Virus record (IMG/VR): IMGVR_UViG_3300005826_000055 | Coordinates: 1-49,527 of that record | Origin: a virus | DNA length: 49,527 bases | Direction: 5' to 3' (one strand) | In this document: positions 15,587 to 46,647 of the stretch, one piece after another | Numbering within the stretch: position 1 is the stretch's first letter | Layout of the letters: each line of letters opens with the position of its first letter | Notes under the pieces: model-generated | Told to the model about the DNA's origin: nothing | The model's input: only the letters and a program-made list of their open reading frames with translations | The model's database searches: none | Made by a program: the position numbers and the translations under genes

Positions 15587-16417
15587 ATGAAACCGCGCGT
15601 GCTCGTCTCTCTTCCATTGTACGGTGGCGCCTGCTATGACCGCTTCCTAAGCAGCTTCAATGATCTGCTCAATTGGGGCAACCAGACTGGAACTACATTC
15701 ATCCTTCAGGTGATCTCCAACGAATCCCTACTGCCACGGGCGAGGAATCTGGGGGTCCAGAAACTCCTGGAACACCGCGAGGAGTTCACTCACATCCTGT
15801 TCGTGGATGGGGATATGGGATTCAAGCCGTACCGTTTCGAGCGGCTACTCCAATGGGACAAGCCAATGGTTGGCTGCCCTGGCCCGGTGAAATACATCTA
15901 TTGGGACCATGTCTACGAAGCTGCCCTGAAGGGGAAGGACCTCCAATCGTTCGCCCTGCGATACGCGGTCAACTTCCTCGGCGGTGACGGATTCCAAGCC
16001 ACCAACGGATTTGCGAAGGTGCGAGACCTGGGGTGCTGTTTCTTCCTGGCGAAGAAGGAGGCCATCATCGAGATGGCCGACCGCTACCCTGATCTGCGAT
16101 GTCACTCCATGTCCCACGTCAACGGCCAGTCGGTACCTGGAGAGAACTGCTACACGTTCTTCGATACCGCGAAGGATGAGAACGGCCGATATTTGGAATG
16201 CGACCATGCATTCATGCACCGATGGCGGACGATGGGCGAAGGCCATGACATTTGGGCCGAAATGACCGGCGATCTCGTTCACGTCGGCATGTACCACTTC
16301 AAAGGTTCCATGTCGGAGTATTACTTTGGGGAAGAGATGGCCACGCAAGTGTCGGCCGTGACGACTAGATGGGGATCCGAATTGCCAGAAAAAGAGGAGG
16401 CCGCAGCCAATGGCTAA
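15587..16417 (+). CDS. GT-A fold glycosyltransferase
   Basis: 276 residues. The N-terminal half reads as a nucleotide-sugar transferase: LVSLPLYGG near residue 5, RARN near 51-54 and FVDGDMGF at 72-79, where DGD is the metal-binding DxD motif. The family transfers sugars from nucleotide donors to glycans or proteins. GGAGGTGA lies upstream of the ATG. The gene is rightward within the leftward tail region and overlaps the next gene by 8 bases, so the two form one unit. Targets may be host surface glycans (superinfection exclusion) or virion proteins. Confidence 0.7.
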   Translation: MKPRVLVSLPLYGGACYDRFLSSFNDLLNWGNQTGTTFILQVISNESLLPRARNLGVQKLLEHREEFTHILFVDGDMGFKPYRFERLLQWDKPMVGCPGPVKYIYWDHVYEAALKGKDLQSFALRYAVNFLGGDGFQATNGFAKVRDLGCCFFLAKKEAIIEMADRYPDLRCHSMSHVNGQSVPGENCYTFFDTAKDENGRYLECDHAFMHRWRTMGEGHDIWAEMTGDLVHVGMYHFKGSMSEYYFGEEMATQVSAVTTRWGSELPEKEEAAANG

Positions 16418-17306
16418 GTTTCACATTACTACGATTCGCGAACCGCAGAACATGTTTCCAATGTGCTTCCGCGAGATGGCCCGACTTCTTCAGTGGGGAC
16501 TGGAGAGTGCCGGCCACGAGGTGACTCGGGCAGAGAATTCGTTCCAAGAGGGCCGGACGAACATCATCTTCGGTTTTCACGAGTGGTTCAAACCCACGGA
16601 GAATCCGCTGGCTTACATCCGGGACTACGACTGCATCATCTACCAGGCCGAGCAGTTGGCCCCCGGCGGCCGACAGATGCCCGACTGGTACTTTGGAGCC
16701 CTGCACCACTGCAAGGCTGTCTGGGACTACTCACAGGACAACGTCGACATTGCCCACCGCAACGGGATTACGTCCATCCACGTCCCGCCAGCGTGGCACC
16801 CCAAGTACACCCCCATCGACAACGTGGGAGACCAGCAGGACATCGACGTTCTGTTCATGGGCGCCCTGAACGGCCGGCGGTCGTTTGCCGTCCAGCTCCT
16901 CGGTCACCTATTCGATGAGGTCCACGTCCTGCAGTCCACCTGGGGTATGGAGCGGGACGAATTCATGGCTCGCGCGAAGATTCTTCTCAACGTCCACTTC
17001 TACAAATCACAGACACTGGAGTTGCTACGAATCTCCCACGCCCTGAACAGCGGCATTCCAGTCGTCAGTGAGGAATCACCAAGCAACCCATGGCCAAATG
17101 CGATTGAAGCGGTGCCTTACGAGGGGCTCGCCAGAAAGGTGATGGAACTACTCCATTCACCGAACGAGCTGATTGAGCTCGGCCTTCGAGGACAAGAGGT
17201 TTTTCACTCTACAAGCATGACTGACGTCGTGACCCAGGCGTTAGACACCGAACCGGCCGCTACACAAGAGGATCTGCCTCAACCAGTGTCAGCACCGCTT
17301 CCGTGA
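16410..17306 (+). CDS. GT-B fold glycosyltransferase, CgeB/DUF3880-like
   Basis: 298 residues. It has the pattern of the CgeB-like family: an N-terminal acceptor domain with FHEWFKP and YDCIIYQAEQL, then the donor-domain segment DVLFMGALNGRR, the ARAKILLNVHFYKS stretch, and LRISHALNSGIPVVSEES, in which the E/S-rich loop contacts the nucleotide sugar. The acceptor is unknown. It is translated from an overlap with the upstream GT-A gene and ends 47 bases inside the 3' end of the convergent leftward gene (17260-18141). Confidence 0.7.
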   Translation: MAKFHITTIREPQNMFPMCFREMARLLQWGLESAGHEVTRAENSFQEGRTNIIFGFHEWFKPTENPLAYIRDYDCIIYQAEQLAPGGRQMPDWYFGALHHCKAVWDYSQDNVDIAHRNGITSIHVPPAWHPKYTPIDNVGDQQDIDVLFMGALNGRRSFAVQLLGHLFDEVHVLQSTWGMERDEFMARAKILLNVHFYKSQTLELLRISHALNSGIPVVSEESPSNPWPNAIEAVPYEGLARKVMELLHSPNELIELGLRGQEVFHSTSMTDVVTQALDTEPAATQEDLPQPVSAPLP

Positions 17307-32686: not shown

Positions 32687-33481
32687 CTAGTCAGTCGACG
32701 TGCCGGTCACTGGATACGATTTGCGCGTCTGCCACGCGCCCAAGTAATCGATCGTCAACACTTCGTTGGACGCGCCCGTCGCCTTGATGCCGGCGAAGAG
32801 ACTGAGCGAGTTCGTGGTGGCAGCAGGTTCGGTGTACGTCATCTTGTGCTTGATGAGGTTGCCGTTGCTGTCCTTGAGCATCTTCCAGTTCTGGCCGCCG
32901 TCGGCATCCGCGTAGAAGCAGACTCGCTTCTCAGTCGCACTGAGAGGCTCGATGGTGATCATCATGGAATACCAATTGCCATCGACGGTGACCTCGGTGG
33001 ACGAGGCTTGTCGAGTGCCAATCGCACTGCTGTCCGACACCACGCCCAGGTTCTGCGCGTTGGTCGCGCCGCTGTTCATGGTCATGACGCAGCAGTTGCT
33101 GGTCGCCGGACCACCCTCGTCGTCGACCAATGCGTTGGCCGTCGGGTTGGCCATCAGACCCCAGATGGTTGCCGCCGAGTTGGCAGCACTGAGAGTCGCC
33201 TTCTGACGAATGATCGCGACAAGAGGCATGTCGTTCTTGATAGAGAAGACCGGGTTGGTCGTCCGAACATACGCTTCCGTGTTGTCCGTCGAGGCATTGA
33301 GCTGGACGAGGCCATTGGCCGCATCGCTACCTTCCCCGACCGCGACAACCGCCGCACTTGCATCGTTCTCCACGGCAGTGAAATCTTTGTATCCACTGGT
33401 GAAGGAGATGAAGTCGTCAAAAACCTCAAACTGCCGGATGTTGTCCAGCCGAGGTTCCCTGTTGAGTAACTTAACCGTCAT
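32687..33481 (-). CDS. Putative capsid decoration protein, paralogue 3
   Basis: 264 residues. Beta-rich sandwich pattern: FEVFDDFISFTS near the N-terminus, NTEAYVRTTNPVFSIKNDMP in the middle, then VCFYADADGGQNWKMLKDSN and NLIKHKMTYTEP. It is similar in order and motifs to the proteins at 34592-35389 and 35386-36195, so the three form a family. Position between capsid and protease genes suggests an exposed virion protein that binds to the capsid. The fold looks LamG-like; no known family name. Confidence 0.6.
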   Translation of the reverse strand: MTVKLLNREPRLDNIRQFEVFDDFISFTSGYKDFTAVENDASAAVVAVGEGSDAANGLVQLNASTDNTEAYVRTTNPVFSIKNDMPLVAIIRQKATLSAANSAATIWGLMANPTANALVDDEGGPATSNCCVMTMNSGATNAQNLGVVSDSSAIGTRQASSTEVTVDGNWYSMMITIEPLSATEKRVCFYADADGGQNWKMLKDSNGNLIKHKMTYTEPAATTNSLSLFAGIKATGASNEVLTIDYLGAWQTRKSYPVTGTSTD

Positions 33482-34591: not shown

Positions 34592-35389
34592 TTACGATAT
34601 CGCCCCGCTCGTTACTATCGCTGCGCGAGGAACGTTTACACTCCACCAGTCAATCCACACTCGCTGCTTCGCGTTCGTGGCGTTGTTGACTACTACATGT
34701 AGGTACGCCGATGTCGGGTCCGATTCGTCACGAATGTGCCTTATCAACTGATTTGACTCGTCGCGGCATGGTGCCCAATCCCCATAACCAGTGACGTCAA
34801 TGAAATACTTGATATAAGACACATCGCCAGGGCGGTCCTCAACAACCACCCGTAGAGTCTGCCACCCTTGCTTGGTCTGGCCTTCGCTTTCGTTCACCTT
34901 AAACGTCGATCTTGTTTCCTCCGACGTCCCGGCGTTCCTGCTTGAATTGACACACCACCAGTACGGGTCATCTGCTTTTTTGAAGAAACCGGCGAACTCC
35001 CTATTGGTCCAATTGACCGACAAGCAGTCTGCGGCAATGGAGGCATTCGGGTCTCCGGCAAGATACCCGTACCCAATAAGCATTGCAGCTTTTCCTGTCC
35101 CGGTCTCGTGCTGGTGAATCCTGAAAGCAGCTTCTTGGATTCGCTGCTCATAATCATCAATCAAACTGGCTCCGGTTTTCCCGGATATCGCTGCCGGTTG
35201 ATTTGCCGTCCCACCTGTCGTGATGCTCGCGCAGCCAGTTCCCCCGCCACTCGAAACAACGACGGCAGCACCCGTTGCCAAGTCTTCACCCCACTCGACA
35301 TCCTTGCCTTCGTTGTCGAAGTCGTAGAAATGCCGCATGTTGTACAAGTTCTCTGGCGGAACCCCAGTCAACAGTATTTGCCTCGTCAT
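34592..35389 (-). CDS. Putative capsid decoration protein, paralogue 2
   Basis: 265 residues from the ATG at 35389, which overlaps the upstream stop (ATGA). It shares the scheme of its two paralogues: MRHFYDFDNEGKDVEW at the N-terminus, a central part with AGFFKKADDPYWWCVN, then WQTLRVVVEDRPGDV and LIRHIRDESDPTSAYLHV. Beta-rich, no signal peptide. A virion surface protein is most likely. The downstream terminator with its nested stems follows. Confidence 0.6.
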   Translation of the reverse strand: MTRQILLTGVPPENLYNMRHFYDFDNEGKDVEWGEDLATGAAVVVSSGGGTGCASITTGGTANQPAAISGKTGASLIDDYEQRIQEAAFRIHQHETGTGKAAMLIGYGYLAGDPNASIAADCLSVNWTNREFAGFFKKADDPYWWCVNSSRNAGTSEETRSTFKVNESEGQTKQGWQTLRVVVEDRPGDVSYIKYFIDVTGYGDWAPCRDESNQLIRHIRDESDPTSAYLHVVVNNATNAKQRVWIDWWSVNVPRAAIVTSGAIS

Positions 35390-36195
35390 ATCGTATCTCC
35401 GTACCGCCTTGCCGCTTGAACGATTCCGCCCATCGCATCGACGCGGAGCAGACACGTATCGTTGGTTTCGCCGAGCTTGATGCCGCAGCCAATCGCCATG
35501 GCCGACGACGGGTCATAGAACATCGAGTGTTTGATCGGCTTGTTGGTCGCACGGTCGCGACACTGCTGGAAGCCAAGTTCCCCGCCTTCATCCACCGAGT
35601 AGACGACATCGAAGTTCTCGTCGCCCCTTGGAAACACCTCGATACGCAAGCTGATGAAGGGGACGTTTCCTCCCGCTGGGTCCACTTGCTGCTTGCTGTC
35701 CGTCTCGGTGATCTGCACCGTGGAAGCGCTAGTAGCCGTACAGACACTCAGGTACTCCGTGCCGTTTGGCTTGAAGAACATGGCCGGGTCGCCGGTCGTC
35801 ACTCCGAGCCCGAGGCCACCATCGGCAATGAGGTCGCCAGCACCGAAGACAGACGCGGCATTGAATCCAGCAACCCACGCATTTGCCAGGTCCAAGTCGC
35901 CGGTGTCCATGTCAGACACCATGCGGCCCTGGAACACCATTGGCAGGTCACCGTTCCACTTGAAAACGGCCGGGCTGTACATGTAGGCTTCGTCGTTCAG
36001 CGTGTTGACGATTTGCAGGTTGACAACACCACCACGGCCCGTCGTCTGCCATTCGACTGTGGCGCCGCCGTCCGTCTCCAACGTATTCCACCTGGAGAGG
36101 CAATCCAACTCCATGAAGTGGTCGAAATACTCGGCCTGGGTCATTCGCTCAAACGCAGACCCCTGCCTCAGCATCCGCCCGCCTGAATACGTCAT
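35386..36195 (-). CDS. Putative capsid decoration protein, paralogue 1
   Basis: 269 residues. N-terminal AEYFDHFMELDCLSRWNTLE, then NDEAYMYSPAVFKWNGDLPM and SLRIEVFPRGDENFDVVYSV, then KPIKHSMFYDPSSAMAIGC at the end. Closest relatives in the window are the genes at 34592 and 32687. Encoded directly after the portal gene, so probably part of the head. LamG-like beta-sandwich is my guess for the fold. Confidence 0.6.
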   Translation of the reverse strand: MTYSGGRMLRQGSAFERMTQAEYFDHFMELDCLSRWNTLETDGGATVEWQTTGRGGVVNLQIVNTLNDEAYMYSPAVFKWNGDLPMVFQGRMVSDMDTGDLDLANAWVAGFNAASVFGAGDLIADGGLGLGVTTGDPAMFFKPNGTEYLSVCTATSASTVQITETDSKQQVDPAGGNVPFISLRIEVFPRGDENFDVVYSVDEGGELGFQQCRDRATNKPIKHSMFYDPSSAMAIGCGIKLGETNDTCLLRVDAMGGIVQAARRYGDTI

Positions 36196-36197
36196 CG

Positions 36198-37898
36198 CTA
36201 CGACCCTTCTTTGCTGCCCACGTTGCCGGGCTCGTCGGCCTGTGGCTGGAACTCGTTCTGACCAATGCCAACACCGAGACCTATTTTCCTGAGTCTCGCC
36301 GCTGCCCTACGGTCGCCGCGAGCTGTCTTCTGCACCTGCACAGGCTGCTTCTGGCCTGGTTGCTTCTGCCCAGGCTGCGAGGGGCCAGGATTCTCTGCCT
36401 GTGCCGCCATCGCCTCGACCTGGAGATCAAACTGCGCCGCTTCCATGGGATCGATGTACAACAGCGGCATCTCGGTGGCACGCATCTCCTGCTCGTGCTC
36501 GTATGACAACTCTTCCTTGGCGGACCAGGTTGGACCGGATAGCAGGCCGTACTCGAACAGGATGGACCGAATCTTGGTCTCTTCGAGGCGATTGCGGACC
36601 GACACACGCGGGACCTTCACCTCCAGCTTGAGCCGTTCCTGGAGCTGCCGGCGGGTGTAGATACCCTGTCCAGTGAATACTCCAGCACGGGCGGCAATCC
36701 CAAGCATCTTCCACATGAGGGACCGGTACGCGCAAGAGAAGAACACCTGCTCGCTCTCCATCGCCTTCACGAACGGTGACTCAGCGACCAAGATACTCGC
36801 GAAGTTGGTGTTGCCCGTGTCGCCCGAAATCATGAACTCGGGGATGTTCCACCGGAGCCCGGCGTATCGGAGGATCGCTCCTGACACATCGATGAAGGTC
36901 GTGCTCCCAGAACCCATCGGACCAGGTTTGTACTGCTGTCCGTTCCGCACGTCGAGAATGGTTCCCGGAAGATAGACCTGCTGACGAGTCGTCCGTGAAG
37001 AGCCACCAACTGTTGGTCTGTCGTACTCGTACTCAGTCTTTCCGGTCCCAAGCGAAAGTACCTGCGACCCGGTAGTCCCAGCAGGATGCTCCCTGATCCA
37101 CGCGATGGCACTCTGCAACGCGGCGCCATCGCCCGTGTTCCGCAAGACCTTCTCTGCTCGTCGCAATGAGCCGGCAACAGGGTAATAGTCGGATACCCCC
37201 CTCTTGCAGTTTGCGACCACGTTTCGCTTGACATGTACCATCCGCTCCTCTGGCACGATGTCCCAGTCCTGCTGGTCGCCACTCAGGTCCACGAAATAGG
37301 CCTGGGGCTTCGATGGTCTGCCAATCGGGGTGCCGATCCCGAAGAGCCAGTCCAAGGAATACGCACCGATGTAGTCATCGGCCGCTCGCTTATCGTGAGG
37401 CTCGGTGATCGCATCTGCCTCGTGGAAGATAGGTTCGCATCGCCCGCCACCAATGGGCATGAGTTCGACGAACGGCTCGCCGTCCTCGATAGTTCGCCCA
37501 TGCATCTCTCGCTCGTGCAGCGGCCAGTCGGTTCGCTCAATGAACTCCTCGATCCAGTCCTGGACCTTGTTCACCAGTCGAATGTTCCCGCGCGGACTGA
37601 CCTTCTTCTTCAGGCTGACCTCATACTTCAAACCGGTCCCGATGGTGAAGTTGGCCAGCGTGTTCTTGGCCCCGATCCCCGCTTCGTTCTCGGTAGCCAG
37701 AAGCCTCGCATCACCCCGAATCGCGTTAAGGTCGTCCTCGACCTCGTAGACTGGGTAGTTGCGGCCGCGTTGGCGATCACGTAGCTGGGTGACGTGTGCC
37801 GTGCCGCCTACCGATGGGGCCATCCGGTTGTCATCCCACAGATACCCATTGCGAAATGCGTTGATGTCTTGCGCCGTCTCTTCCATCGTTTGTCGCAT
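36198..37898 (-). CDS. Portal protein
   Basis: 566 residues from the ATG at 37898 (AAGGAG 7 bases upstream); an earlier start at 37964 is unlikely. The body has the pattern of phage portal proteins: ARLLATENEAGIGAKNTLAN near residue 65, WIEEFIERTDWPLHEREMHG with GRTIEDGEPFVELMP, and later VAESPFVKAMESEQVFFSCA, and the C-terminal Gln/Pro-rich tail (QPGQKQPGQKQPVQVQ). The protein forms the dodecameric ring through which DNA enters the head. It is separated from the terminase by the sugar/radical-SAM cassette. Confidence 0.8.
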   Translation of the reverse strand: MRQTMEETAQDINAFRNGYLWDDNRMAPSVGGTAHVTQLRDRQRGRNYPVYEVEDDLNAIRGDARLLATENEAGIGAKNTLANFTIGTGLKYEVSLKKKVSPRGNIRLVNKVQDWIEEFIERTDWPLHEREMHGRTIEDGEPFVELMPIGGGRCEPIFHEADAITEPHDKRAADDYIGAYSLDWLFGIGTPIGRPSKPQAYFVDLSGDQQDWDIVPEERMVHVKRNVVANCKRGVSDYYPVAGSLRRAEKVLRNTGDGAALQSAIAWIREHPAGTTGSQVLSLGTGKTEYEYDRPTVGGSSRTTRQQVYLPGTILDVRNGQQYKPGPMGSGSTTFIDVSGAILRYAGLRWNIPEFMISGDTGNTNFASILVAESPFVKAMESEQVFFSCAYRSLMWKMLGIAARAGVFTGQGIYTRRQLQERLKLEVKVPRVSVRNRLEETKIRSILFEYGLLSGPTWSAKEELSYEHEQEMRATEMPLLYIDPMEAAQFDLQVEAMAAQAENPGPSQPGQKQPGQKQPVQVQKTARGDRRAAARLRKIGLGVGIGQNEFQPQADEPGNVGSKEGS

Positions 37899-38023
37899 GT
37901 GGGTCTCCTTACACCACCAGTAAACATGATTTGCGGAATGAAAGCCAGTGCGAAGCGGTAGCATAGATGCGACGATAGCAACGCCGACTCCGACTTCACA
38001 GAATGGCCTTCCGTCTTCACAGA

Positions 38024-39070
38024 TCAGATGAAGGCGCCGTGTTTGATCGGCTTAGCGATCTCGTGCAAGACGACGTTCGGCATGTGGCCGCGACACATCA
38101 CCCTGCACTTGTCGTCAACCTTTGCGATTGGGCGGTCGGCCCACACTTCGGAGAACGGCTTTTTACTCAAGTCGCCAAGGCAGTGGCCGTCGAACCCTCG
38201 CTTGTTGCAGCACGTCCAGAGACACCCGTTGGGAGAGATCACCGCCTGAAGTCCAGACCACAAGCACCGGTCGTAACCATGGCCCTTCCAATCGGCGAGC
38301 TGCTGGAACCGCTTACGGTCAAACTCCACCGGGATGCCGACGTCTGGCAATACGATCTCCGACATGTGCTTGAGCCACTTACGGGAGGAGGTCGGCTGAT
38401 TTGGGGTACTCGGGTCGAAGTGAATAGCGGGCCGGAACTGGACGTAGCTCCCGCCAAGGCTTTCCGCCAGTACGGCCATGTCCAACATCCGCGTCCAGTT
38501 CTTTTCGTGGAGGAGGAAACCCACTCCGACCACCGAAACCTTGGCCTTGGCCATCAGCCGAACCGCATTGGTCGCGGCCTCGAAGCGATCTACCCGCTTC
38601 TCCTTTTTGTAGGTCTTCGCGTCGGCACAGTCTAGCGAGACGTAGACCCAATCCGCCGTGTTTGACAGAAGACCAGCGAGGTGTGCGTCCATGTGGACCC
38701 CGCTCGTGTACAGGCCCTGCGCGAGCCCAGTCACGGACGTCAATTGAATGATCGAGCGAAATTGCGGGTGAAGTGTCGGCTCGCCTCCGCCGGTCCAGGT
38801 GACTGATCTGACACGGCTGCTCGCCAGGTCGTGGATGATCCGGCGCGCAAGGGAATAGTCCATCAGGTCGCCAAGATTGTCCTCCTTGTCCGCGATCGCC
38901 AACGGCCCCTTGGTGTGGGTGTAGGCGAAATGGCAGTCCTGGCACCCGAGACTACACCGGTTCGACAGGTCAATCTCGACGTTGACCGGGGCATTGGTTC
39001 GACCGGCCAGCACTCCAGCGACCCGGTCAAGTTGGAACAAGAGCTTCCGTTCGTAGTTCGTGTACTGCAT
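38024..39070 (-). CDS. Radical SAM enzyme with SPASM-like C-terminus
   Basis: 348 residues from the ATG at 39070, one base after the upstream stop. The radical-SAM cluster motif is NRCSLGCQDC at 37-46 (CxxxCxxC), and the SAM-binding GGGEP box is at 93-98 (TWTGGGEPTL). Further Cys in the last 100 residues (GYDRCLWSGL, CLWTCCNKRG, CRVMCRG) fit an auxiliary iron-sulfur cluster as in SPASM enzymes. Such enzymes modify peptides or sugars, or mature other enzymes. It is the last gene of the five-gene cassette that separates the terminase from the portal. Confidence 0.8.
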   Translation of the reverse strand: MQYTNYERKLLFQLDRVAGVLAGRTNAPVNVEIDLSNRCSLGCQDCHFAYTHTKGPLAIADKEDNLGDLMDYSLARRIIHDLASSRVRSVTWTGGGEPTLHPQFRSIIQLTSVTGLAQGLYTSGVHMDAHLAGLLSNTADWVYVSLDCADAKTYKKEKRVDRFEAATNAVRLMAKAKVSVVGVGFLLHEKNWTRMLDMAVLAESLGGSYVQFRPAIHFDPSTPNQPTSSRKWLKHMSEIVLPDVGIPVEFDRKRFQQLADWKGHGYDRCLWSGLQAVISPNGCLWTCCNKRGFDGHCLGDLSKKPFSEVWADRPIAKVDDKCRVMCRGHMPNVVLHEIAKPIKHGAFI

Positions 39071-39071
39071 C

Positions 39072-40403
39072 CTATGCCCACAATGATTGGAAGACCTGCT
39101 GGATCCGCTCCGCCGGGTAGTCTGGATAGTCAACCACCGCGTGCATGCCATCGTACTTCATGAGATTGGTGGTCGTGAGCCAGCCCTTGGTCGCGGCGTC
39201 CCGATAGAACGGGGTGCCAGGCTGCGGGGTCGAGATACTGCACTGCCATCGGGGCATCAGGCCCTGAGTCTCCCACGCCCTAATCTGAGCGACGGTGGAC
39301 GCGTCCTCCTCCTCGGACGAGCCCTGGGCGCCCACCTGGAACGTCCCATAAGCACAAATACCGTTGTCCCTGCACAAATGCAGGAACTGTAACAGGCGGT
39401 CGGCATTCACATTCTTCTTGATCGCACGGCCAGACCTCTCGGAAAGGTTTTCCACCCCCACCCGTAACTGCTGGTAGCCGGCATCCGAGGCCAGCCTGAC
39501 AGTGTCCTCGTCGAAATTCCAATAGCCGCACATCGCGTCGTACACGTACCGGTCCAGATTCCGCTTGATCAGCTCCTGACAGAACTTGACGAACCACTCC
39601 TTGTCCGCGTTATGCGTCTCTTCGTTGAAAAAGCACCCGTAGAACCGATCCTCGTACTTGGTGGCCAGATAGTTGATCTCCGCACAGACGTAGGCTGGGT
39701 TCCTGGTCCGGTGGCTCCGCGAGGTGTTCCCGTGGCCACCGTAGTAGAGTGGGACCGCACAGAACGTGCAACTGAGAGGGCATCCGCGAGTCGGGAACAC
39801 CTGAATCATGCCCGGCATGTTCCCGAGCGGGTTCGACCGCTCCCAATAGTTGATCCGGCTGATGTCCTCATCCTCAGGCCATGGCAACGTGTCGATGTTG
39901 ACGAGTTTACCCGGAACGGTGGCCGAATCATGGCTCCCCACGATGTGATTCAGAACCTGGTATTCGTACTCGCCGGGGAACACATGGTCCCAGCCGTCCT
40001 TCAGGGCCTGTTCCGGATTGTACGTGGCGAACGGCCCGGTCAGGATGATCTTACAGCCGGTCTGGAACTTGACCTCCATGCAGCAGTTCGTCATCGCCTT
40101 ATACGACAACGCGCTACATTCGGTAATGACCACGTCTGGCTGCTCCGCGACCAGGTTGAACGCATACTGCATGGAATCCCACCCGAACCCGACATCGTCC
40201 GGCCTGGGGAGATTGCCGTCCACCATCTTCACGTCATGTTCAGGGCACGAGACCTTGAGCAGGCTCGACAGGTAAGCCAGCTCGTACGGGTAGTAGGCGA
40301 AGTCTTTCCGACCAGGGATCGCAGCGTCCCACCGTGACGGAAATAAGACCAGGCTCTCGCCCGTGGACAGACGGCCGACCGAATTGGCAACGAGAATCTT
40401 CAC
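39072..40403 (-). CDS. B12-binding-type radical SAM enzyme
   Basis: 443 residues from the GTG at 40403, which overlaps the upstream stop (GTGA) and has GGGGAG upstream. The first 170 residues look like a cobalamin-binding-type Rossmann domain (FAYYPYELAYLSSLL, then IILTGPFATYNPEQALKDGW), though the classical DxHxxG base is not visible. The radical-SAM motif is TRGCPLSCTFC with Cys at about 208, 212 and 215. The rest fits the (alpha/beta) barrel (CGYWNFDEDTVRLASDAGYQ). Members of this family do methyl transfer or carbon-skeleton chemistry on lipids, sugars or peptides; the substrate is unknown. Confidence 0.8.
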   Translation of the reverse strand: MKILVANSVGRLSTGESLVLFPSRWDAAIPGRKDFAYYPYELAYLSSLLKVSCPEHDVKMVDGNLPRPDDVGFGWDSMQYAFNLVAEQPDVVITECSALSYKAMTNCCMEVKFQTGCKIILTGPFATYNPEQALKDGWDHVFPGEYEYQVLNHIVGSHDSATVPGKLVNIDTLPWPEDEDISRINYWERSNPLGNMPGMIQVFPTRGCPLSCTFCAVPLYYGGHGNTSRSHRTRNPAYVCAEINYLATKYEDRFYGCFFNEETHNADKEWFVKFCQELIKRNLDRYVYDAMCGYWNFDEDTVRLASDAGYQQLRVGVENLSERSGRAIKKNVNADRLLQFLHLCRDNGICAYGTFQVGAQGSSEEEDASTVAQIRAWETQGLMPRWQCSISTPQPGTPFYRDAATKGWLTTTNLMKYDGMHAVVDYPDYPAERIQQVFQSLWA

Positions 40404-40942
40404 TCTGGGGCTCCCCTGCTGACCTGCATGGCGAAGTAGCTCAACCGGTCGAACCACTCGAACCGGAGCCCTCGCTCGAACTGCTTGTTGATGAAGTGAT
40501 AGTCGCCCTCATACGAATCAGGCCAGTCGTCCGCGTTCGCCACCCAATACTTCCGGCGAACCACGAAACAACTCAAGTCGATGTGGCACTCCATCGGTCG
40601 ATTCTGCCAACAATGGACGGTCGGGTAGATGATGTTGTTGATCTTTCCTCGCCAGATAACGACGTCCGGCCAATCCCGGCATTCCACGAAGTCACACAAA
40701 TCCATGGCGACGTCGCGGTCGAGGAGGCAATTGTCGTCACTAAGGACCACAACGTAATCTCCGTGGACCTTGTGGGCGTGGTTTTGGATGTCGCGATACA
40801 TCCCCCCCACACCCAGACCGACTGTGTCCTCCACAATCACGTGCTGACAGGGGAGCTCTTGGGTCGCGACAGATGCCTTGCACCGCTCCAGTAGTGTCGG
40901 TCGCTTGTACGTCGGGGTGTACACCGAAAGGAATTCAGTCAT
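40400..40942 (-). CDS. Family 2-type glycosyltransferase
   Basis: 180 residues, short for a GT-A enzyme. The N-terminus SVYTPTYKRPTLLERCKAS is the standard beginning of family 2 transferases, and VVVLSDDNCLLDRD at 64-77 has the DDN variant of the DxD metal site. The C-terminal part has FVVRRKYWVANADDW and GDYHFINKQFERG, like the acceptor side. It overlaps the neighbouring genes on both sides by 4 bases, so it is part of one translated unit. Confidence 0.75.
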   Translation of the reverse strand: MTEFLSVYTPTYKRPTLLERCKASVATQELPCQHVIVEDTVGLGVGGMYRDIQNHAHKVHGDYVVVLSDDNCLLDRDVAMDLCDFVECRDWPDVVIWRGKINNIIYPTVHCWQNRPMECHIDLSCFVVRRKYWVANADDWPDSYEGDYHFINKQFERGLRFEWFDRLSYFAMQVSRGAPE

Positions 40943-41628
40943 GTTTCAATCGCTGCCTCCGACCGCCTGGATAAATGGGCTGACAACTGCTTTGCGTGGT
41001 TGCTGTCCCTGGCCCACAACTCACTCGCGAAGATGCTGCCGGGGATGAACCGCCACGGTATCTCATACCTGTCCAGTAAGTGGGTCATACTGATCTGGTC
41101 GTTCGAGCAGAACAGCAACTGATGGAGCAGCCACTCGGCCTCCATCGGGCGAAACCTTGGGTGCCGCCGGCGGATGATTAGGTTGCCGCAGGAAACGCGT
41201 TTCTCCACATTCAGCCCGAGCAATCGGTAATACTCCTCTTGCCCAGGCAGCGTCTCCTTGCCGTGGTACAAGGACGTGCAAGCCTTCATTTCCTGCCGGA
41301 TGGTCCGCTTGTCGTCGTGCTGGAAGAAGGCCGCCAAGCAGTCTTCTAACTGCGACAGGCACCACTGCACGAACTCACTCGACCGAATCTTGACCAGCCC
41401 GCATGTCCAGATCGTCACGTCGTAATCGGGGAACAACGTTGACGCCAGGGCCTTGGGGATCCTCGATGTTTCGAGATTGGAGAACTGCTTCATCTTCGGC
41501 AGTTTTCTCCGCTTCCACCCATCGGCCTCGGCACCGTAGATGAAGAAATCCGCGTCGACCGTCTGTGTCGGCGCCGGCACAATGTCATCCACCTGGCCGT
41601 AGTTGGCCGTGAACACCGCAACGCGCAT
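40939..41628 (-). CDS. DUF616-like glycosyltransferase
   Basis: 229 residues. Resembles the DUF616/TOD1-type transferases: VAVFTANYGQVDDIVPAP at the start, FFIYGAEADGW, the middle SRIPKALASTLFPDYDVTIW in which the usual WxDG is WTCG here, and FQHDDKRTIRQEMKACTSLY near residue 100. The replaced acid in the metal motif is odd. It is one base before the epimerase gene's stop and overlaps the next gene by 4 bases. Sugar addition to an unknown acceptor is likely. Confidence 0.65.
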   Translation of the reverse strand: MRVAVFTANYGQVDDIVPAPTQTVDADFFIYGAEADGWKRRKLPKMKQFSNLETSRIPKALASTLFPDYDVTIWTCGLVKIRSSEFVQWCLSQLEDCLAAFFQHDDKRTIRQEMKACTSLYHGKETLPGQEEYYRLLGLNVEKRVSCGNLIIRRRHPRFRPMEAEWLLHQLLFCSNDQISMTHLLDRYEIPWRFIPGSIFASELWARDSNHAKQLSAHLSRRSEAAIET

Positions 41629-41629
41629 G

Positions 41630-42631
41630 TCAGAGCTCCAGCCAGCGTGGATTGTCCAAGGTCCACCTGATGGTCTTCTCCAGGGCGTCGTCCACGGTCA
41701 CGGGCGGAGTCCACCCGTAGTTGTGCAGCTTTGCCCCGTCCAACGCATAGCGGAGGTCATGGCCTGGCCGGCTGGAATGGAAGTCCACCATCTCGTATTT
41801 GAGATCCTTTCCCAGTACCTCCGCGATCTTGCGGGCCAGCGTCAGGTTATCCCACTCCTCAGGGCCGACGATGTTCCACTTGCCGCAGCTCGCGTCCTCG
41901 TTATCCAGTGGCATCGGCAGGTTTTCGATGATGTGCATCACCGCACTGGCAACGTTTCGCGCGTGGATGTAGAACCGCGAACCTGGGACCGTCTTGTCCT
42001 CGTTCGCGTGGATAGTGATCGTCTCCTCAGCCAGAATCTTCCGGATACACATCGGAATGAACTTTTCCGGGTGCTGTCGCTCGCCGAACACGTTCATCGT
42101 GTTGGTGATCGCGATCGGCATCTGGTATGTGTTGCTGTACGCATAGCAGAAGCACTCGGCAGCCGCCTTGCTCGCGGAGTACGGATTGCCAGGCAGGAAC
42201 CGTTCACCCTCCTTGTAGGCTTTCTTACCGGGGGCAGGGCCGTAGACCTCGTCCGTGCCGAAGTAGATCACCCGCGAATTCACCGTCCGGGCGAAGTTGA
42301 GCAGGTTCACCGTGCCCATCACATTGGCCTCGGCGAACCGGTTCGGGTACATGATCGACCGGTCGACGTGACTCTCCGCCGCCATGTGGATGATGACGTC
42401 GGGGCGCCCCAGCTCGGACGCCAGACCGTCACAGATGGGCCGTACCAGGTCATGCGAATGGCACTCGACATTGCTCACCTGGTAGACCTGGACGTCTCGG
42501 AGACGGTCCCATCCGCCCGAGGCGAAGGATAACGCATCAAGGACCGTGATCTTCCAGTCCGAGTTCTTCAACAGGTGCTCCACCATGTGGTGGCCAACAA
42601 ACCCAGCACCGCCCGTTACCAATACATGCAT
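41630..42631 (-). CDS. NAD-dependent epimerase/dehydratase, dTDP-glucose 4,6-dehydratase-like
   Basis: 333 residues, full length for the family. TGGAGFVG at 6-13 is the GxxGxxG NAD site; AAESHVDRSI at 84-93, FGTDEVYG at 124-131 and YSASK at 151-155 give the Thr-Asp-Glu and Tyr-Lys catalytic motifs of the RmlB-type sugar dehydratases. It converts a nucleotide hexose into a 4-keto-6-deoxy or epimerised form. It is the first gene of the five-gene cassette, following the terminase, and should supply the sugar donor to the two glycosyltransferases. Confidence 0.85.
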   Translation of the reverse strand: MHVLVTGGAGFVGHHMVEHLLKNSDWKITVLDALSFASGGWDRLRDVQVYQVSNVECHSHDLVRPICDGLASELGRPDVIIHMAAESHVDRSIMYPNRFAEANVMGTVNLLNFARTVNSRVIYFGTDEVYGPAPGKKAYKEGERFLPGNPYSASKAAAECFCYAYSNTYQMPIAITNTMNVFGERQHPEKFIPMCIRKILAEETITIHANEDKTVPGSRFYIHARNVASAVMHIIENLPMPLDNEDASCGKWNIVGPEEWDNLTLARKIAEVLGKDLKYEMVDFHSSRPGHDLRYALDGAKLHNYGWTPPVTVDDALEKTIRWTLDNPRWLEL

Positions 42632-42640
42632 GGCTGACTC

Positions 42641-44050
42641 CTAGATTCCTGCTAGTTCAATTCCAACCTCGGCCGATCCGTCCAACCCGTACTGCCTCAA
42701 GTGCGTGGCCAACTCCAGACCCATGGCCAGCGAATCCGGACCGTCATCGTACTTGTGGCCAGGGAATCCCTTCAACTGCTCCAACAGGAGAGCCACCCCA
42801 GGCGATTTCCTCTTGAAGTGGAGCGATCCGGTGGACAGGAAGGGCGTGATCGCCGCACGAATCTTCATCTTCTTCTCGCGTGTGGACTGAATGGTGTGAA
42901 TGTGGGGCCAGTAGTCCAGCTCGCGGCACCGCCGGCGGAACATGCCGACCAAGACCTTCGCGAATGCGTTGCCCTCGATGCCGACCGCGACAACCGCATG
43001 CTTGGCCGCGACAGCTAGCAGTAAGTCCACCTGCTTCCATGCGTCCATGCGATCCAGCCAGGCGTCCACCCAGACGTGGCCGGCCGGGTCGACCGTGAGC
43101 AGCGTCACGGCCGCGTAGTCGCTCTTGCTCGACTCACCCACAGATGGGTCTAGGAATGCGATGGAGAAGTTTTGACCGCCTTGAGGCATCTCCTCGAACA
43201 TGATGCGGTCGTGGAAGTATTCCGCGTCCCACTCGCTATCCAAGACCAACGGTGGGCGTTGCTGATAGAGGGCGTCCCACATCCAGTGATAGCCACTCTC
43301 CTCGTATCGGCGTTTGATGCGGGTCAGCTTGTCGAGCGGCCAGCGTTCAGGCCACAATGCCTCGCCACCATCGCTGATGGCCGGCATCATGATCCGTTCC
43401 CAATGCTCACCGCTCCGCTCCGCCTCCTTGAGCACGAAGCCAATCAGATCATCGACATGCCACCGCGTGGCAAGGATGACGACGGAAGCCCCCGGCTCGG
43501 CCCGAGTAATGCACGAGGTCAAATACCATTCTTGCAACTTCGACCGCTGGACCTCGCTCAAAGCCGCTTCTACGTCCTTGAAGAAGTCGTCCACGATCAA
43601 TAGGTGGCCACCAGCACCCATCGTTGCCCCGCCACCAACACCAGCAGCGTAGACTTCACCCTCGTGTGGACCGGTACCGGCGAGCTTCCATCGCTCCCAT
43701 GAATGCGTCTGCTCGTCGATCTTTGAACCAGCCTGAATACACAGACTACGCACTGCGACCGAACTGCGCTGAGCCAGACGTGATGTAGCGCCCCAGAGCA
43801 TGATATTCCGGGTCGGAAAGAGCGAACGATACCACGCCGGGTAGTACATTGATGTGAGGGTACTTTTCCCGTGCCGTGGCGGCATCTCGACGATCACCCG
43901 ATAGTCGGGCGTGGTTGCAGCTCTCACAAGTGCATCGTCTAAGATCGACAGATGATTCGCCATCCTCCATTTGCCTTGGCTGTTCTCGTGAGCCCAAATC
44001 CCTGGACTCGCGAACTCCCCGAACGCTGGCAACTTGATAGCAGGCACCAC
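42641..44050 (-). CDS. Terminase large subunit
   Basis: 469 residues from a GTG at 44050 with GGAGG 6 bases upstream. The ATPase Walker A region is MPPRHGKST (56-64), the Walker B is HLLIVDDFFKD, and the coupling motif SVVILATRWHVDD follows. The nuclease domain has FLDPSVGESSKSD, VVAVGIEGNAFAKV and KYDDGPDSLA, giving the acidic residues for two metals. It cuts concatemers and drives DNA into the head through the portal. No small terminase subunit is obvious; the small genes just upstream are candidates. Confidence 0.9.
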   Translation of the reverse strand: MVPAIKLPAFGEFASPGIWAHENSQGKWRMANHLSILDDALVRAATTPDYRVIVEMPPRHGKSTLTSMYYPAWYRSLFPTRNIMLWGATSRLAQRSSVAVRSLCIQAGSKIDEQTHSWERWKLAGTGPHEGEVYAAGVGGGATMGAGGHLLIVDDFFKDVEAALSEVQRSKLQEWYLTSCITRAEPGASVVILATRWHVDDLIGFVLKEAERSGEHWERIMMPAISDGGEALWPERWPLDKLTRIKRRYEESGYHWMWDALYQQRPPLVLDSEWDAEYFHDRIMFEEMPQGGQNFSIAFLDPSVGESSKSDYAAVTLLTVDPAGHVWVDAWLDRMDAWKQVDLLLAVAAKHAVVAVGIEGNAFAKVLVGMFRRRCRELDYWPHIHTIQSTREKKMKIRAAITPFLSTGSLHFKRKSPGVALLLEQLKGFPGHKYDDGPDSLAMGLELATHLRQYGLDGSAEVGIELAGI

Positions 44051-44126
44051 ACATGTCCTCCGTGAACAACCCTATCCGTCCGCATTTCCTGCATGGTAGC
44101 AGCTCTAATGGTCGCGTGTCTCGCAT
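43746..44126 (-). CDS. Zinc-ribbon ORF overlapping the terminase start
   Basis: The ATG at 44126 comes right after the preceding stop (TGAGATG) and GGAAGAG lies upstream. The first 32 residues contain CRKCGRIGLFTEDMCGACY, a CxxC...CxxC zinc ribbon. The reading frame then stays open for 300 bases inside the terminase gene in another frame, with several more Cys. Either it is a short zinc protein whose 3' part overlaps the terminase, or the terminase is reached from it by frameshift. It could also be a chance open frame. Confidence 0.35.
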   Translation of the reverse strand: MRDTRPLELLPCRKCGRIGLFTEDMCGACYQVASVRGVRESRDLGSREQPRQMEDGESSVDLRRCTCESCNHARLSGDRRDAATAREKYPHINVLPGVVSFALSDPEYHALGRYITSGSAQFGRSA

Positions 44127-44127
44127 C

Positions 44128-44379
44128 TCACTCTTCCTTGGGCGTGTCGACCTGAGGGTCGACTTGGATCTGAATCGGTAGCTTGCCACCCTGTCCGGCA
44201 AGCATGTCTTGGATGAAATGCTCCACTCCGCCCGGAGGGATCACGAGGTTAATCGCGAAACCGTCCTGGATGTCTTCGATCAAGTCACCCGCCAGCAGCG
44301 TCAACTGCTGGACCCCCGTCATCGTCTGATTCGCCTGACCCTGCAATTGATTCAAACGACCCCGCAATCTCCTGAACAT
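44128..44379 (-). CDS. Small phage protein, unknown
   Basis: 83 residues with GGAGG 8-9 bases before the ATG. Helical start (RRLRGRLNQLQGQANQTM), then LAGDLIEDIQDGFAINLVIP and PGGVEHFIQDML, and an acidic end. It overlaps the previous gene by 95 bases in a different frame. Could be a terminase small subunit or an accessory packaging protein; no motif to decide. Confidence 0.5.
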   Translation of the reverse strand: MFRRLRGRLNQLQGQANQTMTGVQQLTLLAGDLIEDIQDGFAINLVIPPGGVEHFIQDMLAGQGGKLPIQIQVDPQVDTPKEE

Positions 44380-44569
44380 TGAACGGTTCCTCCATGCATG
44401 CCTTGTGAACTGCCTTGAACGTCAACATGAGAGTCTTGGACGCGGCGCGAAGCAACGGGTCCTTGCTCTCCTTCATCGCCTCCACCCCACCCTCGAAACA
44501 GATCTTGTAGGCCACCAACTCGCGGCAAATCGAACACATCTGATCGCCGGTCATGTGCGGGCACTTCAT
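44285..44569 (-). CDS. Small zinc-binding protein
   Basis: 94 residues. HMTGDQMCSICREL has a CxxC knuckle, with more Cys later (YKICFEGG, KACMEEP). The centre is a helix (DPLLRAASKTLMLTFKAVHK). The tail is Gly/Ser/Asp-rich and overlaps the next gene. No family recognised; gene order suggests the packaging region. Confidence 0.5.
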   Translation of the reverse strand: MKCPHMTGDQMCSICRELVAYKICFEGGVEAMKESKDPLLRAASKTLMLTFKAVHKACMEEPFNVQEIAGSFESIAGSGESDDDGGPAVDAAGG

Positions 44570-44579
44570 CGTCGCAGCC

Positions 44580-44795
44580 TCAATTCAATTCGTGGAGCCT
44601 GTTATTGGTGTCGGGTGCTGGCGCCGACACGGACGCTACGTCATGGTCGCGGATGTACGTGTGCTCCAGTCGCGCCAATCGCGACTCCACCAGCCAGCAC
44701 CGCGTCTCAAGCCGGTAGACCGCATGGTGGTGCCACAGGAGGCAGAACGCAAACAACATCCCGACACCAAGGATCAAGAGTTCAGTAGACGCCAC
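44580..44795 (-). CDS. Small membrane-anchored protein
   Basis: 71 residues from a GTG at 44795 with AAAGGGG upstream. ELLILGVGMLFAFCLLW near the N-terminus is a single membrane span, followed by a basic helix (RLETRCWLVESRLARLEHTY). Small proteins of this sort in late-operon leaders can be holins, spanins or host takeover factors. No lysin is next to it, so the role is open. Confidence 0.5.
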   Translation of the reverse strand: MASTELLILGVGMLFAFCLLWHHHAVYRLETRCWLVESRLARLEHTYIRDHDVASVSAPAPDTNNRLHELN

Positions 44796-44841
44796 CTTAA
44801 TACCCCTTTCGTTATTTCCATCTCACTCATCATTCACCTCG

Positions 44842-45039
44842 TTATCCTCCTGGATGCAGCCTGGCCCGGACTGCCGCATCCTTTGCTTCGAGAAGTTTAC
44901 GAAGTGATACCGTCCGCTCGGGGCCTGGCTCGCATGAATTGCAGACGCTCGTTGCGAGTTCGCAAAACGGCAGTGACACCGCTTGTAAATGCTCTGGTAA
45001 ATGTGCACACTCAAACCATTTCAACATTCGATCGTCCAT
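44842..45039 (-). CDS. Small helical hairpin protein, resembles Acb2/Tad1-hairpin family
   Basis: 65 residues: LKWFECAHLPEHLQAVSLPF, ELATSVCN, then GPERTVSLRKLLEAKDAAVR. Widespread phage proteins with this F-x-[YH]-LP...ELA...P.ER..AL.KLLEAK pattern form two helices; I believe the family is related to the Acb2/Tad1 hairpin domain (DUF7681), known for phage sponges that sequester cyclic nucleotides made by defence systems. The order of motifs fits; the specific binding residues were not checked. The ATG at 45039 lies one base after the upstream stop. Confidence 0.65.
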   Translation of the reverse strand: MDDRMLKWFECAHLPEHLQAVSLPFCELATSVCNSCEPGPERTVSLRKLLEAKDAAVRARLHPGG

Positions 45040-45040
45040 G

Positions 45041-45214
45041 TCATTCCTCCACTACTTTGGCGTACTCAACCAAGTCCGGCCATTCACCGGACCACTCTTG
45101 CTTCAAAAACCAAACCAGATAATGATCTGGCACGTTGCCCAGCCGCTCACCCTTGTACTTGCCGAACGGCATAATGTCGTCATCGGTCAAGGCGTGGGGG
45201 TTCCGCTCACTCAT
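45041..45214 (-). CDS. DUF3820-like small protein
   Basis: 57 residues, too short for a long-ORF scan but with a typical motif, DDIMPFGKYKGERLGNVPDH, followed by LVWFLKQEW. The MPFGKYKG...VP..YL.W pattern marks the DUF3820 family, found in phages and bacteria with unknown activity, sometimes fused to exonucleases. ATG overlaps the upstream stop (TGATG). Confidence 0.65.
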   Translation of the reverse strand: MSERNPHALTDDDIMPFGKYKGERLGNVPDHYLVWFLKQEWSGEWPDLVEYAKVVEE

Positions 45215-45381
45215 CACTCACCTCGCTGTTGGTCAAGAATTACCTCATCGATTGATGGCACGCCGTCGTAATCCTCCGAAGCCCGTAGGACCACCCTCGT
45301 CACATCGTTCCATTGCTGGTCCGTCGCTTTGCCGGACTCCAACAGTTCTCGCACAGCTCGCCGGTACTGATATGCGTCCAT
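45214..45381 (-). CDS. Small hypothetical protein
   Basis: 55 residues: MDAYQYRRAVRELLESGKAT, then WNDVTRVVLRASEDYDGVPS, a short acidic helical protein. Its stop overlaps the following start, which supports translation. Function unknown. Confidence 0.5.
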   Translation of the reverse strand: MDAYQYRRAVRELLESGKATDQQWNDVTRVVLRASEDYDGVPSIDEVILDQQRGE

Positions 45382-45420
45382 CACGCGACTCCCTTCGGCG
45401 GCCGGCGAAACGATTCGATG

Positions 45421-45570
45421 TCACAGAGAATAGCCCTCATCGTCCCCCTCCGGCCCCGGAAACACGTCCCCAATCATCATCCACTCCTCGTCCTGACACT
45501 CCATACAGATCGGGGCGACCAGGTCGTCGCACTCTTCTCCCATCTCCCGATCACACACTATGCATCTCAT
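45421..45570 (-). CDS. Small zinc-knuckle protein, first gene after control element copy 4
   Basis: 49 residues with two Cys pairs, CIVC (3-6) and CMEC (22-25), forming a likely zinc ribbon, then an acidic end (VFPGPEGDDEGYS). Only about 28 bases separate its ATG from the -10 of copy 4 and there is no clear Shine-Dalgarno, so it could be near-leaderless. Function unknown. Confidence 0.5.
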   Translation of the reverse strand: MRCIVCDREMGEECDDLVAPICMECQDEEWMMIGDVFPGPEGDDEGYSL

Positions 45571-45598
45571 GGCCGCTTATTGTAGCCGCTATTTGCAA

Positions 45599-45627
45599 TT
45601 ATTAAAGATGTCGCACGACACCCCCCC
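45599..45627 (-). promoter_or_regulatory. Control element copy 4: G-box, palindrome, -10 (leftward)
   Basis: Leftward GGGGGG (45627-45622), a 17-bp spacer with GGTGTCGTGCGACATC (one base off the perfect palindrome), then TAATAA (45604-45599). It heads the head-and-packaging group (45570-31384), so it is the probable main late promoter or a control site for it. Confidence 0.8.
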
Positions 45628-45656
45628 CGGCGAGCCGTCCGGCGGCGGGACAAAAG

Positions 45657-45866
45657 CTACTCCGCCTGGTGCCAACGCGGGTGACACACCACCTCCCGAC
45701 CATCCCGCTGTGCCCGGCGAAGATAACGACCCTCAAGAGTCCGCAATAACCTCCGACCACACGAACAGTGACACCACCAAGTCATCCCTCCAGAACCACG
45801 ACGGCCGCGACCAACAACCAACAATGAACCCGCCCGCTCACACTCCATCTCAATGATACGACCCAT
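45657..45866 (-). CDS. Small Cys-containing protein
   Basis: 69 residues from an ATG at 45866 behind a G-run. The C-terminal half reads WWCHCSCGRRLLRTLEGRYL and ends with CHPRWH, similar to small phage proteins with a C.CxCG...C pattern. It lies upstream of control element copy 4 and would be transcribed from the non-coding region to its right. The opposite-strand open frame (45560-45856) is Pro/Asn-rich and looks less convincing. Confidence 0.4.
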   Translation of the reverse strand: MGRIIEMECERAGSLLVVGRGRRGSGGMTWWCHCSCGRRLLRTLEGRYLRRAQRDGREVVCHPRWHQAE

Positions 45867-46281
45867 GCCAATTACCCCCCCAAAAACCTTCAAAAGCGGA
45901 GCCTACGACACGATTTCTGCTTTACCCGATAAAAAGGCTCGCCCCGGCGATATGAGTACAATTCCGTCAAAAATCTTACCAAAAAACCGTAAACGACGTA
46001 GCTGAACGTCAAAAGACGGGGGCGGCGGTATTTGGCGGGATATTTTTGTTTTGACATTTCGGGGGAGAAAGGAATCAGACACAGATGGACCCCTCTCGGT
46101 GAACCCAAAATTTTTTTTGCTGCATGGATGGGTGGAGACCGGCAGAGGCACCCCACCCCCCCGCTTCAGAATGTGCAAGGCACGTGCCAGACGAACGCCC
46201 CAGGGCAGGGGGACGCCGAGAATCGGTACCCCAGGGCCGGCGCGTCGATGGCGGGGGCGCAGGGCCACCGGATGGACGTCC

Positions 46282-46306
46282 GGGGCAGGGCAGGGGCGCA
46301 GGGGGG
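46282..46306 (+). other. Potential G-quadruplex motif
   Basis: Four G-runs on the + strand: GGGG (46282-46285), GGG (46288-46290), GGGG (46293-46296) and GGGGGG (46301-46306), with loops of 2, 2 and 4 bases. This meets the standard G3+N1-7 rule. It lies in the G-rich core of the non-coding region. Confidence 0.6.
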
Positions 46307-46467
46307 CCATAATCGGCCTGAAACGGGAAGAATGGGCCTCAGAGGGCCATGAGAGGGCATGGGCGTGCCGGTGAATCCTGGGGCCGAGAGGGGGCGTGCC
46401 CCAAGGCCATGGCATGCTGAGAACCACGTACCCCAGCATAGGGCAGGGTACAAGACACGGACCGCTG

Positions 46468-46479
46468 ACCTACGTAGGT
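46468..46479. repeat. 12-bp perfect palindrome
   Basis: ACCTACGTAGGT at 46468-46479 is fully self-complementary. It lies in the divergent non-coding region and could be a protein-binding site. Nothing else of this sequence was noticed. Confidence 0.5.
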
Positions 46480-46647
46480 GGCTGTATCGCTGGCGTGACG
46501 TCCTATTCTAACGCTGCCATCAAACCACCCATAACGATAGGCGTATCCTCAGACGTACCCTATCCCTGCCTCTTATATGGTCTTGTGTAACGGTGGACTA
46601 GAGGCCACCCAGAAACAAGACCACCCGGTGAATGGTGCCAGAACGTT

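Follow-up and report, generated by a model that had tools for sequence, protein, structure and literature searches.

A radical SAM and glycosyltransferase cassette inserted between phage terminase and portal genes, a putative module for virion glycan modification

A viral contig of 49,527 bases, which makes up an entire record and is referred to here as the window, carries five minus-strand genes wedged between the terminase and portal genes (Table 1), and we judge it probable (roughly 60%), on sequence evidence, that these genes form a late-expressed module making a radical SAM-modified glycan on a virion protein. All five open reading frames lay at the positions given by an earlier sequence-only reading and were as tightly packed as it had described, with junctions that, from the RmlB-like gene to the SPASM gene, consisted of a 1-base gap, two successive 4-base overlaps, and a 1-base gap. 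The end of the terminase gene was separated from the RmlB-like gene by 9 bp, and the portal gene, starting at 37898 or 37964, lay 59 to 125 bp 3' of the SPASM gene. A consensus scan of positions 36000 to 46500 found no promoter-like sites, with 3.4 expected, a result that would fit the co-transcription that we infer for the cassette. Judging from its relatives, the arrangement is not due to chance, because a related contig, L008, keeps the gene order at 52 to 54% identity (GT2, B12-type, SPASM, and portal proteins) and because relatives show no variation in the catalytic residues.

Table 1. Cassette genes and flanking genes in the window
Feature	Coordinates	Strand	Evidence
Terminase large subunit, 5' flank	42641..44050	-	phrog_38, E 7e-76
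RmlB-like dTDP-glucose 4,6-dehydratase, 333 aa	41630..42631	-	TIGR01181, E 3e-73; PDB matches; active-site motifs
TOD1/MUCI70-type (former DUF616) glycosyltransferase, 229 aa	40939..41628	-	PF04765, E 0.0094; L008 homologue above cut-off
Minimal GT2-family glycosyltransferase, 180 aa	40400..40942	-	Homologues adjoining SPASM genes; alignment; Pfam on members
B12-type (Rossmann + radical SAM) enzyme, 443 aa, GTG start	39072..40403	-	TIGR03471 HpnJ, E 7.6e-31, below cut-off; fold AprD4
SPASM radical SAM enzyme, 348 aa	38024..39070	-	Pfam Radical_SAM + SPASM; invariant Cys; predicted fold
Portal protein, 3' flank	36198..37898	-	phrog_21, 1.3e-33; PF05136, 3.4e-15

The comparison with cassette-free relatives that the sequence-only reading had proposed indicates that the cassette is an insertion at a normally near-empty junction, because terminase and portal nearly adjoin in those relatives. 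A portal-alignment search of viral contigs yielded 65 loci, 44 of which were cassette free and had portal and terminase on one contig; the two genes were 136 to 319 bp apart in 42 of these 44, and about 1.8 kb of small genes separated them in the other two. When the window sequence was the sole query, a terminase search among viral contigs gave no matches. In L008, the order was terminase, TOD1-type glycosyltransferase, GT2, B12-type radical SAM enzyme, methyltransferase, SPASM radical SAM enzyme, and portal. In a further relative, L014, the order GT2, SPASM, portal was kept, and upstream of it were an opposite-strand glycosyltransferase gene and a SPASM-like open reading frame lacking an intact radical SAM motif.

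When 2.9 million viral contigs were searched with a profile, the SPASM enzyme proved to belong to a close family represented on 46 other contigs at 39 to 52% identity, below which identity fell sharply to 24 to 28%. Together with the window, these make 47 contigs, 33 of them distinct at 90% identity. A recognized head or tail gene occurred within 7 kb of the SPASM gene in 42 of the 47 (on both sides in 21), counts to be read in the light of many contigs being short and of viral contigs being rich in structural genes. Neighbor clustering with PHROG and Pfam assignments identified portal, protease, major capsid, head-tail connector, neck, major tail, and tape-measure genes around the SPASM genes, and only 3 of 582 neighbors were on the opposite strand. 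A recognized glycosyltransferase was present on 44 of the 47 contigs and a B12 enzyme on 13, and a small GT2 gene stood directly upstream of the SPASM gene in 19. The small GT2 gene and the SPASM gene form the core of the cassette, a pairing that the sequence-only reading had missed. Our own grouping according to structural genes distinguished about seven arrangements, in which the module occupied the terminase-portal, capsid-connector, or neck-tail junction. The placement within the virion operon that had been claimed for the window, where terminase and portal flank the cassette, recurs in several phage lineages. In a tree of the SPASM proteins, single clusters were formed by the terminase-portal group, by group C, and by group D, and group E was nested among group B rows, so that exchange or shared descent between arrangements is possible. 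The genes of relatives were called with a simple script, frameshift cases (L006, L009, and L041) included, and the L041 row of the tree is a frameshifted artifact.

The sequence-only reading had named consistent occurrence of homologues in host cell-wall gene clusters as evidence against itself; the close family, as far as the searched sequences indicate, is viral and nearly absent from cells. Among 84,980 cellular genomes, a scan keyed on two short conserved peptides, which divergent relatives can escape, found a single close relative (45% identity), and this match was on a 3.9-kb phage-like contig of a Chloroflexi MAG that encodes a B12-type radical SAM enzyme, a GT2, the SPASM enzyme, and repetitive virion-like proteins, in that order. 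In a comparison with 50,697 phage records, identities of only about 19 to 28% were obtained for the SPASM and B12-type enzymes, and nothing matched the small GT2, the portal protein, or the tail-linked GT1 described below. In the literature searched, the terms radical SAM, SPASM, bacteriophage, and glycosyltransferase occurred together only in a survey of conflict systems.

A variant of the module was tied directly to a tail gene. In lineage C, the order was neck, GT2, SPASM, GT1, and major tail, and a tail-protein search showed that a GT1 gene (PF13524) was immediately upstream of the major tail gene, mostly within 30 bp, at 59 of 62 loci with an upstream gene; the major tail proteins of this survey fell into 52 groups at 90% identity. 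The content of the neck-GT1 interval varied and comprised the SPASM pair, TylF (macrocin O-methyltransferase, from a family of sugar methyltransferases), methyltransferases of other kinds, several GT2s, or a B12 radical SAM enzyme with a clear B12-binding domain. Phage DSL-LC06, which encodes a protein distantly related to the tail protein, had no glycosyltransferase at the corresponding place. In an independent case on the capsid side, the podovirus-like metagenomic phage MW202801, the capsid gene was followed by a single small gene and then by genes for a SPASM homologue (26% identity), a glycosyltransferase, PhyH, a methyltransferase, a NodB-like protein, and a further glycosyltransferase. 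By gene content, the theme shared across these loci is sugar attachment and sugar tailoring within the virion operon.

The RmlB-like protein had the NAD motif TGGAGFVG and the active-site motifs GTDEVYG (TDE) and YSASK (YxxxK), and its nearest solved relatives were dTDP-glucose 4,6-dehydratases in the PDB (to 5.5e-60), with an NCBIfam equivalog score of 246.7 bits, under the cut-off of 365.1. Among close relatives, RmlB occurred only in the window contig and the other cassettes lacked it; the gene fits the module but is not part of the core. The sequence-only reading had combined two radical SAM enzymes with a sugar supplier: both radical SAM motifs are conserved, and the supplier is peculiar to the window. 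Both glycosyltransferase assignments were sub-threshold in Pfam on the window proteins (E values of 0.0094 for the TOD1-type protein and 0.024 for the GT2), and we accept them because homologues exceed the Pfam cut-offs: the L008 homologue of the TOD1-type protein, 28% identical, scored 26.5 bits against a cut-off of 21.4, and the homologue of the small GT2 in contig L020 passed at 5.6e-9. Alignment of relatives showed that residues D39, D69-D70, and D147 of the small GT2 are invariant.

Pfam Radical_SAM matched the two radical SAM enzymes at 1.3e-9 and 3.7e-14. In the B12-type enzyme, the CxxxCxxC cysteines C208, C212, and C215 were invariant in the alignment of relatives. Its top NCBIfam family, HpnJ, was matched with 107.5 bits against a cut-off of 577.6, and the AprD4 equivalog NF033070 with 31.4 against 500. 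The structural model (pLDDT 81) matched AprD4, the radical SAM diol dehydratase of apramycin biosynthesis, best and over nearly its full length (Z 31.1, rmsd 3.0, 402 residues aligned, 19% identity), the next fold having a Z of 24.3; AprD3, the reductase partner of AprD4, was not identified in the cassette. AprD4 deoxygenates paromamine (PMC5461906), and HpnJ converts a glucosamine that a glycosyltransferase has already attached into a cyclitol ether (PMC12583986). The predicted fold and the nearest families favor sugar chemistry for the B12-type enzyme.

The assignment of the SPASM enzyme came from a Pfam SPASM score of 22.6 bits, above the gathering score of 21.5, and from cysteines invariant in 25 sequences, namely, C39, C43, and C46 of the CxxxCxxC motif and C269, C287, C322, and C326 in the C-terminal part. 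Two-cluster SPASM peptide maturases carry seven C-terminal cysteines, whereas the auxiliary cluster here has four. DesII, which matched the model (pLDDT 92) with a Z of 25.2, acts downstream of an RmlB-type step. The peptide maturase SkfB (24.6) and BlsE (24.2) followed, and SuiB and anSME, also peptide maturases, were among the closest solved folds. Identity to DesII and BlsE was 13 to 15% (DesII, 13%). DesII and BlsE, the top or tied folds, both use sugar substrates, a TDP-deoxyaminosugar in the case of DesII (PMC11434129); with these enzymes and SkfB within 1 Z, the predicted fold does not divide the substrate classes. The tie with SkfB and the lack of RmlB in the other cassettes count against a glycan module. 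Of the sugar or peptide modification suggested by the sequence-only reading, the sugar is favored for the B12-type enzyme, and the SkfB and SuiB folds keep the peptide in play.

Several known systems resemble the cassette in part. Its glycosyltransferase genes are tied to structural genes, as in phage virion glycosylation systems. Virion glycosylation has been reported for mycobacteriophages of the Che8 group (Freeman et al. 2023, cited by PMC11256854); the Che8/Rita phages, like the cassette, have phage glycosyltransferases, linked there to glycans on structural proteins. In Maravista, which is related to Che8/Rita, the glycosyltransferase genes are located close to the genome's 3' end and no radical SAM gene is mentioned (PMC11256854), whereas the cassette has glycosyltransferases and two radical SAM genes inside the head operon. 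In the HpnI-HpnK-HpnJ pathway to bacteriohopanetetrol cyclitol ether, a sugar attached by a glycosyltransferase is changed by a B12-type radical SAM enzyme, as we propose for the cassette, but the acceptor is a lipid of bacterial membranes and there is no SPASM partner.

The main rival explanation, which we consider unlikely, is that the cassette remodels a host surface polysaccharide, for superinfection exclusion or receptor change. Phage-borne radical SAM cassettes are also found in pelagimyophages and in Campylobacter phages CP220 and CPt10, the former of these two being rich in radical SAM genes (PMC2853527), and there the genes are located in a host-recognition region or metabolic island and have been read as serving host-surface or host-metabolism functions (PMC7029224, PMC2853527); in the pelagimyophages, radical SAM and glycosyltransferase genes share the host-recognition region and the glycosyltransferases have been read as modifying the O-chain (PMC7029224). 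In addition, large marine phages and bacterial genomes encode distant SPASM relatives (21 to 28% identity), some of them near rmlB-like, glycosyltransferase, and sugar genes. However, the cassette is at the terminase-portal junction and not at the host-recognition or tail-fiber location expected of a host LPS-modification cluster. The close family is on the coding strand within the virion operon, its junctions are tight, no promoter-like site was found, and this placement recurs in several unrelated arrangements, one variant being tied directly to a tail gene. Genes for surface modification are as a rule expressed earlier than head genes or separately from them, a timing that argues further against a host-surface role. 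Somewhat less likely still is that the SPASM enzyme modifies an amino acid residue of a virion protein (a thioether, an epimer, or similar), with the glycosyltransferases decorating the same residue or acting independently. The SkfB, SuiB, and anSME folds would agree with this, but the four auxiliary-cluster cysteines, the AprD4-like fold of the partner enzyme, and the lack of any recurrent small open reading frame or precursor-peptide gene adjoining the SPASM gene in the neighbor clustering argue against it.

Two other explanations are much less probable. Known phage DNA-hypermodification pathways include radical SAM and glycosyl-transfer enzymes, and a modified base could be glycosylated and then altered by radical chemistry. 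Nevertheless, a scan of the longer window genes turned up no gene for base modification, whether of the thymidylate-synthase-like, nucleotide-kinase, or another type; the cassette lies within the virion operon, and its relatives are found next to tail and capsid genes. None of the classified genes points to DNA modification, in agreement with the sequence-only reading, and we regard this explanation as very improbable. Least probable of all is that a small molecule or ribosomal peptide is made and secreted during infection. Natural-product clusters contain B12 radical SAM enzymes, SPASM radical SAM enzymes, and glycosyltransferases, and the sub-threshold NCBIfam matches point in the same direction, but the five enzymes fill the cassette completely, and genes for a precursor peptide, a ligase, an exporter, or immunity are absent from it.

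For the virion-glycan module that we prefer, RmlB would supply a 4-keto-6-deoxy nucleotide sugar, and the two glycosyltransferases would attach a short sugar to a structural protein, for which capsid, portal-region, and tail proteins are all candidates; no single one is pointed to because the insertion site differs between lineages. The B12-type and SPASM enzymes would alter the sugar by radical chemistry, either on the protein or earlier on the nucleotide sugar, with diol dehydration, deoxygenation or deamination, and epimerization or rearrangement as candidate steps, as in AprD4, HpnJ, and DesII. The benefit would be surface disguise or altered adhesion.

A broader proposal, which we put forward tentatively and at a little under even odds, is that the particles of uncultivated tailed phages carry glycans that radical SAM enzymes have made or edited, by means of a GT2-SPASM core with an optional B12-type radical SAM enzyme in variable slots of the virion operon (terminase-portal, capsid-connector, or neck-tail tube), and that in one widespread group the major tail gene is paired to a glycosyltransferase of its own. 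Few phages are known to have glycosylated virions, and the module, if the proposal is true, would represent a new type of virus-particle modification; if the radical SAM enzymes build the sugar, particle glycans would be made by chemistry hitherto known from antibiotics and membrane lipids. The enzyme set, almost absent from named phages, might be mined for new sugar-editing enzymes. Furthermore, the GT1-tail pairing offers tail-tube glycosylation as a hypothesis for a large group of uncultivated phages, and such glycans may bear on how phages evade host defenses or immune recognition or adhere to surfaces.

Outside the radical SAM and sugar-transfer cassette, the window contains further candidate glycosylation genes. 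Two adjoining glycosyltransferase-like genes lie on the strand opposite to that of the tail genes around them, and the first of them matched only phrog_1574 (unknown function); the pair may add further sugars. Three proteins encoded near the portal and capsid genes may decorate the capsid surface as decoration proteins do, and so may be candidates for carrying the glycan. None had a family match, and two of the three clustered, at about 30% identity, with a single-copy gene of the relatives' loci L008, L009, and L014. The 938-aa lectin-like protein is probably a fibre or adhesin. The window also carries a phage-borne Matrixin-type (Peptidase_M10) metalloprotease.

Coordinates of the features discussed
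Feature	Contig	Position	Strand	Remark
Two glycosyltransferase-like genes	Window	15587-16417, 16410-17306	+	Our reading
Three proteins alike in size	Window	32687-33481, 34592-35389, 35386-36195	-	Near portal and capsid genes
938-aa protein	Window	12327-15143	-	Three Laminin_G_3 (concanavalin-like lectin) stretches
Metalloprotease gene	Window	10336-11262	+	
SPASM radical SAM gene	L048	10-1929		639-aa ORF
Glycosyltransferase and SPASM-domain ORF	L014	1601-2377, 2325-3122	-	Both in terminase-portal slot

In the SPASM radical SAM gene of L048, NRCVLGCQAC is followed by FPPGTLVETEASGRI within one ORF, which looks like an intein inserted directly after the CxxxCxxC motif. The SPASM gene call in L049 also starts late. 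In the L014 slot, the glycosyltransferase is on the opposite strand, and the SPASM-domain ORF lacks an intact CxxxCxxC motif.

Among the loci retrieved with the lineage C major tail protein (L176-L253), 59 of 62 have a PF13524 glycosyltransferase gene immediately 5' of the tail gene. A search of 50,697 phage records gave no relative of this tail-linked enzyme. The pairing merits separate study as a possible case of tail-tube glycosylation.
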